Assembly: GCF_902498065.1 (NCBI RefSeq) | Contig: NZ_CABVIR010000001.1 | Span: forward strand, 434,001-498,000 | Direction of reading: 5' to 3' | DNA from: Pseudomonas fluorescens | Lineage (GTDB): Bacteria; Pseudomonadota; Gammaproteobacteria; Pseudomonadales; Pseudomonadaceae | Length of the DNA: 64,000 nt | Part shown: positions 53,175 to 54,846 of the stretch, one piece after another | Layout: each line of letters opens with the position of its first letter | Numbering within the stretch: position 1 is the stretch's first letter | Notes under the pieces: model-generated | Database searches by the model: none | What the model saw: the letters and a program-made list of their open reading frames with translations, nothing else | What the model was told of the DNA's origin: nothing | Position numbers and translations under genes: made by a program

Positions 53175-53191
53175 TAGCAATAAGTCTGCCA
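53175..53191 (-). promoter_or_regulatory. sigma-54 promoter of the sulfide operon
   Basis: On the minus strand the bases read TGGCAGACTTATTGCTA, matching the sigma-54 consensus TGGCACG-N4-TTGCW with GG and GC ten bases apart. The element is about 55 bases before the persulfide dioxygenase start. Confidence 0.75.
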
Positions 53192-53288
53192 GGCCGGGAT
53201 CGCACAAAAATATGATGTTATCTATTTGATTTTATTGTGTTTTATCTTTATTGAAGTCGTTTGACCTTCTCTACATTCACCTGGATTT

Positions 53289-53329
53289 ACTGCCATTGGC
53301 AGTCCATGTTGACAGAGGTGGCAGTGCCA
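53289..53329. promoter_or_regulatory. FisR upstream activating sites
   Basis: ACTGCCATTGGCAGT (53289-53303) is a palindrome with 7-bp arms, and TGGCAGTGCCA (53319-53329) one with 5-bp arms. They lie about 100-155 bases upstream of the sigma-54 promoter, on the side of fisR, as expected for an enhancer-binding protein. Confidence 0.65.
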
Positions 53330-53360
53330 TTACAGGATGGATGGATTCTCAGGAGTCACG

Positions 53361-54686
53361 ATGAAAACTATCCTGCCCACCCCAACCCCTTCGCTTCCGC
53401 ACTCGGATCAAGTGCAGTCACTTGTTTCGTTTCTTGAGCACGAACCCCAGCCGATGATCGTGCTCGATCCGGACTACAACATCCTGGCTGCCAACACTGC
53501 CTATCAACGGCAGTTTGGTAGCGCTGACAAACCCTTTATCGGCCATAAGTGTTATCAAATCTCACACCATTACGACGTTCCTTGTGATCAGGCGGGTGAG
53601 AACTGCCCGATGAAAAAGGCGCAGGAAATGCGCGGACCGGATCGTGTTTTGCACATTCACCACACGCCTCGTGGTCCAGAGCATGTCGACGTCGAATTGC
53701 GCCCGATTCTAGACGAGCACGGTGTTATTACTGCCTACGTGGAGCGTCTCACCCTGGTCCGCAGTGCATCTGCGCGACCCAGCAACGAAGGGTTGGTCGG
53801 CTGCTCACCTGCCTTTAACCGTGCCCTGTCGGAGCTGCAGCGGGTGGCACCCTCAATGCTGCCGGTGCTGCTGCTAGGCGAGTCCGGTACGGGCAAAGAG
53901 CTGTTCGCCCGCGCCGTACATGAAACCAGCGAGCGGGCCACTGGACCCTTTGTCGTCGTTGATTGCTCTGGATTGACCGAAACGTTATTTGAGAGCGAAC
54001 TGTTCGGCCATGAAAAAGGAGCATTCACCGGTGCTACCACGCGCAAGCCCGGTTTGGTCGAAACGGCCCAGGGCGGCACGTTGTTCCTTGATGAGATTGG
54101 CGATGTTCCGCTGGCCATGCAGGTGAAACTGCTGCGCCTGATCGAATCGGGCACCTATCGCCGTGTCGGCAGTGTCGAGACCCTTCACGCTAACTTCCGG
54201 TTAATTGCTGCGACCCACAAACCATTGGAAAAAATGATGGAGAAAGGTGAGTTCAGGCAGGACCTGTACTACCGCATCAGCGCCTTTCCCATTCAGTTGC
54301 CGCCCTTGCGCAACCGGATTGAAGACATTGGTTTGCTGGTGAATTCATTTCTGCAACGTGCCGGTACAGGCAAACGCCGACTGACGATAGATGCAGATGC
54401 TCTGATGCAATTGCAGCGATTTTCCTGGCCCGGCAATATCCGTGAATTACGCAATGTTCTGGAAAGAGCCAGTCTGTTCGCTGACGATGGGGTGATCCGC
54501 TCCATACATTTGCCCCAGGTATCCGTGGTGGCGTCTGCTCAGGCCGCTGCTTCAACTGCATTCGACGGCAGCTCGCTGGCACAGGAACTGGCGACTTTCA
54601 AAGGTACCCGCAGTGAGCTGGCCAAGCACCTGGGGGTTAGCGAACGGACTTTGTACCGACGATTGAAAGAACAAGGTCTGGCCTAG
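53361..54686 (+). CDS. fisR: sigma-54-dependent sulfane-sulfur sensor FisR
   Basis: From the ATG at 53361 the protein has 441 residues. The N-terminal sensor region carries Cys64, Cys75 and Cys82 spaced C-x10-C-x6-C, the same spacing as the three sensing cysteines of Cupriavidus FisR. The AAA+ domain has LLGESGTGKELFARAVHE (Walker A), GAFTGA (sigma-54 loop) and GGTLFLDEIGDVP (Walker B); the C-terminal Fis-type helix-turn-helix has ELAKHLGVSERTLYRRLKEQ. Persulfide on the cysteines activates transcription. It is divergent from the sulfide operon and followed by the cytochrome bd genes. Confidence 0.9.
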   Translation: MKTILPTPTPSLPHSDQVQSLVSFLEHEPQPMIVLDPDYNILAANTAYQRQFGSADKPFIGHKCYQISHHYDVPCDQAGENCPMKKAQEMRGPDRVLHIHHTPRGPEHVDVELRPILDEHGVITAYVERLTLVRSASARPSNEGLVGCSPAFNRALSELQRVAPSMLPVLLLGESGTGKELFARAVHETSERATGPFVVVDCSGLTETLFESELFGHEKGAFTGATTRKPGLVETAQGGTLFLDEIGDVPLAMQVKLLRLIESGTYRRVGSVETLHANFRLIAATHKPLEKMMEKGEFRQDLYYRISAFPIQLPPLRNRIEDIGLLVNSFLQRAGTGKRRLTIDADALMQLQRFSWPGNIRELRNVLERASLFADDGVIRSIHLPQVSVVASAQAAASTAFDGSSLAQELATFKGTRSELAKHLGVSERTLYRRLKEQGLA

Positions 54687-54709
54687 TAGTAAGTGCTCAA
54701 TTCGCAAGA

Positions 54710-54743
54710 CTGCCAATGACTGCCAGCCCTGGCAGATTGGCAG
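54710..54743. promoter_or_regulatory. second cluster of FisR-type inverted repeats
   Basis: Four TGCCA/TGGCA half-sites occur as CTGCCAAT, CTGCCAG, CTGGCAG and ATTGGCAG within 34 bases, about 90-120 bases upstream of the cytochrome bd sigma-54 promoter. They match the half-sites before the sulfide operon. The hairpin could also terminate fisR. Confidence 0.6.
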
Positions 54744-54830
54744 CGAACTGGCCTGTCGACGCCTCCCGCGGATCACCGAGCTTCTGACTAAGTGACTGTT
54801 TTAATACGATAAAATCAAATTGCTCGCCCT

Positions 54831-54846
54831 TGGCATGCCCTGTGCT
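54831..54846 (+). promoter_or_regulatory. probable sigma-54 promoter of the cytochrome bd operon
   Basis: TGGCATGCCCTGTGCT fits TGGCACG-N4-TTGCW with the invariant GG and GC ten bases apart. Transcription would start close to the cydP ATG at 54859, so cydP would be nearly leaderless. Confidence 0.6.

Follow-up and report, generated by a model that had tools for sequence, protein, structure and literature searches.

The founding paper on FisR is said to be that of Li 2017, on Cupriavidus pinatubonensis JMP134, and the third cysteine of the protein from this species is reportedly Cys71, giving a spacing of 11 and 7 residues. SQR turns sulfide into persulfide, reducing quinone in the process. 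In excerpts of the published work, C. pinatubonensis FisR is described as a sigma-54 activator with three conserved cysteines, in which persulfide crosslinks Cys53 to Cys64 (PMC9495516; also PMC12170894). In A. baumannii, again as given in excerpts (PMC7315123), FisR is required for the induction of pdo-sqr, sulfide induces cydAB, and a link between SQR and CydAB through quinone has been proposed. As in the locus described below, the A. baumannii fisR gene and pdo-sqr-tauE are transcribed divergently and a sigma-54 promoter is predicted, but the same excerpts connect FisR with the pdo-sqr operon alone and do not place cydAB under it. In the one A. baumannii record inspected, the 3 kb before cydA showed no FisR gene or sigma-54 site, and the reported induction of cydAB without this layout indicates that sulfide can act on cyd independently of it.

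Sulfide sensing combined with a shift to cytochrome bd is known only in part, from this induction in A. baumannii, for which the excerpts assign no regulator, and from YgaV of E. coli. YgaV, a sulfide-responsive SqrR/BigR homologue, has been reported to repress the cytochrome bd genes (PMC9774250, PMC11858517, excerpts); it resembles the case presented here as a sulfide-responsive regulator affecting cydAB, but differs in not being a sigma-54 activator. The bd enzymes of E. coli have been described, in an excerpt, as making respiration resistant to sulfide (PMC4815019). The gene order cydP-cydA-cydB-cydX of our locus has been reported for Burkholderia cenocepacia H111, where excerpts place it under the control of Anr/RoxSR (PMC9104464, PMC11742914) and where the word sulfide occurs in neither text. 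The authors of that work, as excerpted, limit cydP to Burkholderiales, whereas we found it in Pseudomonas and Pseudoalteromonas as well. In the Paraburkholderia cydA loci taken for comparison no FisR gene stands beside cydA. A preliminary description of the present locus had held the coupling of FisR to cytochrome bd to be undescribed, and our search of the open-access literature likewise found no paper linking FisR to cyd.

The window, that is, the whole stretch of 64,000 nucleotides of Pseudomonas fluorescens DNA that was analysed, carries the order pdo<-fisR->cydPABX-ybgE, with the sulfide genes on the minus strand and fisR and the cyd genes on the plus strand. The genes are as follows:

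48719..49683, minus strand: two short transporter ORFs that overlap (DUF6691; Sulf_transp, YeeE/YedE type), 3' of tauE
49688..50491, minus strand: tauE, membrane protein of the sulfite-exporter type (PF01925)
50517..52187, minus strand: sqr, with an N-terminal BLH/DUF442 sulfurtransferase-like domain (PF04273 and PF07992; TIGR01244 above its cut-off, NF049943 below)
52243..53121, minus strand: pdo, persulfide dioxygenase of the MBL fold (PF00753; dioxygenase part of Blh NF040641, 384 bits, cut-off 625)
53361..54686, plus strand: fisR, with PAS, AAA+ (GAFTGA) and Fis-type HTH domains (PF08448, PF00158, PF02954)
54859..55035, plus strand: cydP, small putative bd subunit (NF045611 above its cut-off)
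55032..56603, plus strand: cydA, subunit I of an E. coli-type bd, with a GTG start and its own AAGGGG (PF01654; 6rko alignment)
56596..57732, plus strand: cydB (TIGR00203 above its cut-off)
57755..57877, plus strand: cydX (TIGR02106 above its cut-off; PF08173)
57874..58161, plus strand: ybgE (PF09600; TIGR02112 below its cut-off)

By order and strand, the two transporter ORFs likely belong to the sulfide operon. The fisR gene is divergent from pdo-sqr, with a sigma-54 promoter motif before pdo; its reading frame is open from ATG 53337, and the Shine-Dalgarno sequence AGGAG that precedes ATG 53361 makes the latter the likely start. The encoded protein has the complete domain set, consisting of a PAS-type sensor, an AAA+ domain whose GAFTGA was read in the translation, and a Fis-type HTH. 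The preliminary description had noted three sensing cysteines in the known spacing, and these were indeed read as C-x10-C-x6-C (CYQISHHYDVPCDQAGENC), i.e., 11 and 7 residues apart; the pattern is kept in 117/117 FisR-like rows (e.g., CYEVSHHFSVPCDQAGESC). With C. pinatubonensis FisR the protein shares this spacing and the sigma-54 activator type, whereas the known regulon of that protein is sulfide oxidation and here a second operator and promoter stand before cydPABX. The FisR of C. metallidurans, at 68% identity, has pdo and sqr beside it. A search at E<=1e-90 returned the protein of the window as the sole FisR-family member of this genome.

The same description had called the oxidase E. coli-type, which agrees with the families found. 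The alignment of CydA to E. coli bd-I (6rko) covers about residues 5-511 of the 522 given; the NF011677 score is 777 bits, below the cut-off of 968, and the presence of a full-length CydA together with CydB and CydX marks the operon by sequence as encoding an E. coli-type (long Q-loop) bd. By its likeness to the E. coli enzymes this oxidase would be resistant to sulfide. The genome holds one further CydA-family protein, so that the locus probably encodes a second bd oxidase. Behind the cyd operon lies a ligase D gene (58513-61164) with phosphoesterase, ligase and primase-polymerase domains.

Before both pdo and cydP we identified a control region of the same build, in which TGCCA/TGGCA half-sites are followed by an A+T-rich block and then by a GG-N10-GC promoter:

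53176..53191, minus strand: predicted sigma-54 promoter of pdo, TGGCAGACTTATTGCT, GG-N10-GC, also seen in related loci
53219..53231, unstranded: IHF-like site on the pdo side, TATCTATTTGATT, one mismatch to the IHF consensus used
53291..53329, unstranded: TGCCA/TGGCA half-sites TGCCATTGGCA ... TGGCAGTGCCA, proposed as the FisR operator of pdo, located 5' of fisR
54710..54743, unstranded: nested TGCCA/TGGCA palindrome CTGCCAATGACTGCCAGCCCTGGCAGATTGGCAG, conserved, proposed FisR operator of cyd
54789..54815, unstranded: conserved A+T-rich block before cyd, with a degenerate IHF-like site (two mismatches)
54831..54846, plus strand: predicted sigma-54 promoter of cydPABX, TGGCATGCCCTGTGCT, GG-N10-GC, motif match

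At pdo the half-sites start at 53291, 53297, 53319 and 53325, at 100-138 bases upstream of the -24 element, and the predicted +1 near 53165 leaves a 44-nt leader with AAGGAG. At cyd they start at 54711, 54721, 54730 and 54738, at 89-120 bases upstream of the -24 element. Sigma-54 matches before both operons and inverted repeats about 90-155 bases upstream had been named in the preliminary description, and both are present as claimed. The sigma-54 match taken alone was dropped as evidence, its count in the window being at chance level: three matches, of which the third (53845) falls inside fisR, against 1.9 expected, with 184-213 matches per simulated genome. Half-sites and promoter combined at the spacing found occur at two places (three pattern hits) in the 6.2-Mb genome, which are pdo and cyd, and the reversed-pattern control gave no match in the same genome. 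Six simulated genomes contained one such place in total, and one of 60 simulated 64-kb sequences had a match, so the chance of an accidental origin is low, not nil. With a spacing of 50-80 the composite gave no hits in the genome, and the strict consensus with TTGCW found neither the pdo nor the cyd promoter. Two details speak against the cyd promoter, namely its -12 element, GTGCT, which departs from TTGCW, and the weakness of its IHF match, with two mismatches.

Among 398 Pseudomonas genomes, 23 carry cydP, and in 21 of these fisR lies directly upstream; the other two are a locus at a contig edge and the locus L053 (genome G169). In L053, fisR and pdo have been lost, while both operators and the promoters of pdo and cyd are retained in fused form; a FisR of 65% identity is encoded at another place in that genome. 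Similarly, locus L068 has no fisR beside cyd and a FisR of 66% identity elsewhere in the genome. The alignment of leaders comprised 28 distinct sequences (35 rows with identical ones merged) and omits L057, which has no upstream sequence, and L066 and L067, whose upstream sequence is short; L066 does show the promoter. In all 28 the promoter is found at the same place, with GG-N10-GC at -27/-28 from the cydP ATG, and at least two half-sites are present. Mean column identity reaches 0.908 in the operator (54709-54744), 0.883 in the promoter and 0.811 in the A+T block (54791-54815), compared to 0.606 and 0.525 in the flanking spacers, so that conservation in the spacer between fisR and cydP is highest in the half-sites and the promoter.

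Twelve fisR loci of the type present in the window (79-100% identical) were found among 119 Pseudomonas genomes. Six of them carry cydP with the sites (including L009, which has a truncated cydA), one lies on a contig that ends within the promoter, one without cyd retains half of the palindrome, and the remaining four, all without cyd, show no such repeat within 297 bases after fisR; the repeat is therefore absent or half gone in five loci without cyd. The other FisR type of Pseudomonas is 62-67% identical to that of the window (28 matches), and in the 18 loci examined, with 1.5-kb flanks, no cydP was found beside it.

The predicted +1 of cyd is 54857, two nucleotides before the cydP AUG, and no Shine-Dalgarno sequence serves cydP. 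The predicted start falls 1-2 bases before this AUG in 28/28 Pseudomonas leaders and in the Oxalobacteraceae scored, a Shine-Dalgarno core is present in one of the 28 Pseudomonas cydP leaders, and leaders of about 15-27 were obtained for most of the Comamonadaceae loci that were scored. This pattern suggests that cydP is likely translated from a leaderless sigma-54 message, with cydA using its own AAGGGG. Since the predicted +1 leaves cydP without leader or Shine-Dalgarno sequence, the true cyd start could also lie elsewhere.

The preliminary description rested on one locus; the pairing of FisR with cyd recurs in other bacterial groups. A CydA scan, from which the best 80 of 316 loci (those from named genomes) were taken, revealed the same order pdo-fisR-cydP in six Oxalobacteraceae, one uncultured betaproteobacterium, one member of the Comamonadaceae and one Aquabacterium, with FisR proteins 71-83% identical to that of the window. 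In the same best 80, Rhodoferax, Polaromonas, Hydrogenophaga, Glaciimonas and others have a FisR-like protein (~50% identity) encoded divergently from cyd. The divergent arrangement with a FisR-like gene was also seen on two Pseudoalteromonas replicons. The tandem arrangement thus occurs mostly in Oxalobacteraceae, and the divergent one in Comamonadaceae and relatives and in Pseudoalteromonas. Promoters in many of these non-Pseudomonas cyd loci resemble TGGCACGGTTCTTGA and have half-sites upstream, which lie 80-136 bases before the cyd promoters where the regulator is divergent. In Pseudoalteromonas xiamenensis (L210, 3989-6700) one long annotated cydB CDS spans cydA and cydB, and a FisR-like gene and cydP precede it. 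Two further loci were observed in which cyd is linked to the FisR operon in a different manner: in Rugamonas sp. A1-17 (L095) cydP lies directly behind pdo without a promoter of its own and could be read through from pdo, and in Oxalobacteraceae bacterium AB_14 (L075) cyd follows pdo-sqr-tauE with its own promoter.

The presence of the sites before cyd covaries with that of FisR. Outside Pseudomonas, half-sites and promoter were found in 41/41 cyd loci with a FisR-like gene at less than 800 bases, in 10/13 where such a gene is elsewhere in the genome (in some cases only 1-4 kb away; L095 is one of the three misses) and in 1/10 where the genome has none, a group in which "no FisR" could mean "not assembled", several genomes being draft bins. 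These figures refer to 64 of the 65 loci scored (L074-L138), the genome of L125 not being searchable, and were obtained with a pattern relaxed after its strict form had given 32/41 and 8/24, so that the test was not blind; the strict form, in which the fifth base had to be A, the seventh had to be G and TG could not be followed by G, missed nine of the 41 adjacent loci. The Fisher p of 7.6e-8 is too small, as the rows share ancestry, and serves as a guide only. Forty loci satisfied the strict promoter pattern; 32 of them have an IHF-like site with at most one mismatch between half-sites and promoter, compared to 3.9 after shuffling of the bases.

A sample of 274 genomes of the class contained FisR in 49, CydA of this type in 48 and both in 12. 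The two genes are less than 2 kb apart in 6/12 genomes (5/11 without the window's own) and within 14 kb on one contig in two more; that 6/12 have them more than 2 kb apart counts against FisR control of cyd. Among the 30 cydA loci compared from this sample, a promoter-like site precedes cydA in 4/4 with FisR in the flank, the window's own included, and in 2/26 others, one of which has FisR ~9 kb away. In two of the six pairs less than 2 kb apart, those of G423 and G637, where FisR is 1.1 and 1.6 kb away, no promoter was found directly before cydA, which also counts against it. Of 29 FisR-like loci in the class, viewed with 1.5-kb flanks, three have cydA, two have pdo and 24 have neither, which implies that FisR-like proteins have further targets.

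What the sequences show directly is the order of the genes, the pair of control regions, the conservation of these regions and the way in which they covary with FisR from genome to genome. The rarity of the composite, the conservation of the leaders and the covariation make FisR control of cytochrome bd very likely, also beyond this strain. The proposal in the preliminary description that FisR controls both operons is accordingly favoured by the computational tests, on account of the conserved sites and of the covariation with FisR presence. We consider it highly probable, judging from these sequence data, that FisR would activate the pdo-sqr-tauE and cydPABX-ybgE operons when the predicted persulfide signals modify its three cysteines. 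In the mechanism that we infer, SQR would oxidise sulfide to persulfide and pass the electrons into quinone, and the persulfide would crosslink the cysteines of FisR. Bending of the IHF type would carry the FisR hexamers bound at the TGCCA/TGGCA half-sites to the sigma-54 holoenzyme, which they would then open at both promoters, with hydrolysis of ATP. PDO would remove the persulfide, and CydABX would pass quinol electrons to oxygen where sulfide blocks heme-copper oxidases. One activator would in this way join the disposal of sulfide with an oxidase able to take its electrons. What is new is a second, recurrent target for a known regulator family. The recurring layout offers a directly testable explanation of the way in which many environmental proteobacteria respire in sulfide, and pdo and cyd form a clean promoter pair for its study. 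We lean slightly towards the broader view that cytochrome bd may regularly belong to the persulfide regulon throughout Burkholderiales, in part of Pseudomonas and in Pseudoalteromonas, switched from a sigma-54 promoter by FisR or by a dedicated cyd-linked clade, with a leaderless cydP mRNA often as the first product.

FisR might also drive cyd in response to a signal that is neither sulfide nor persulfide; NO, CO, cyanide or oxidants, for instance, could act on the cysteines or the PAS domain. Bd oxidases resist several poisons, and the divergent cyd-linked relatives of FisR often have no pdo or sqr match nearby. In Cupriavidus necator, according to excerpts, an almost silent promoter is activated by a point mutation that lies 210 bp before cydA2B2; the mutation raised the reporter about 500-1000-fold and conferred CO tolerance, so that such an operon can stay silent until its signal comes. 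Against this, the genome studied here has one FisR for pdo-sqr and cyd and one operator type, and the sensing-cysteine pattern is retained in all 117 FisR-like rows; we regard a different signal as unlikely. Slightly less probable still is that the oxygen regulators Anr and RoxSR control cyd, with the sigma-54 site contributing little or surviving as a relic. The B. cenocepacia operon is under Anr and RoxSR and induced at low oxygen, as excerpted (PMC11742914), but the best Anr-like match in the cyd leader of the window has three mismatches, a sigma-70 scan of this leader gave none that pass (1.1 expected), and a relic would hardly persist in 28/28 leaders or track the presence of FisR. Oxygen may nevertheless exert extra control on top of FisR. 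It is very improbable that the palindrome is a fisR terminator or mRNA hairpin and that cyd has an unrelated promoter: it is self-complementary and begins 24 bases after the fisR stop, but has no T-run, is absent from the list of terminator-like sequences, resembles the pdo operator and is missing from the four fisR loci without cyd mentioned above, and the same half-sites stand before cyd where the regulator is divergent and no terminator is needed. Terminator, Anr-box and sigma-70 readings were all tried and were not supported by the scans.

The relationship between FisR and its cyd-linked relatives was examined in a tree of 92 of the 117 FisR rows, 25 near-duplicates having been removed by hand; as 41 of its 89 inner branches have support under 80, it was used for the main groups only. 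The cyd-linked proteins encoded divergently fall into a single clade (30 rows, SH-aLRT 99), separate from the pdo-linked group, in which the Pseudomonas type clusters with that of Oxalobacteraceae. The cyd-linked rows were mostly found via cydA, and the clade says nothing on its exclusiveness to cyd. Two cyd neighbours, L143 and L144, fall outside it, and L012 and L154 bear the label "other" solely because their contig or flank stops short of cyd. The DNA-binding helix is nearly equal in the cyd-linked and pdo-linked groups (SERTLYRRLK vs SERSLYRKLK, or similar; 13 rows). A separate FisR-like clade (L160, L162-L170), mostly of the VPCSxxGEHC type and 41-45% identical, keeps the three cysteines, and has neither pdo nor cyd within the flanks.

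Within Pseudomonas the cluster (49688-58161) is patchy, its CydA is 90-91% identical to that of Oxalobacteraceae and its FisR groups with theirs, which suggests a likely horizontal acquisition from Oxalobacteraceae-like bacteria. Finally, in three loci (L047, L048 and L009) cydA stops after about 33 codons and is succeeded by other reading frames, while fisR, operator, promoter and cydP appear intact.
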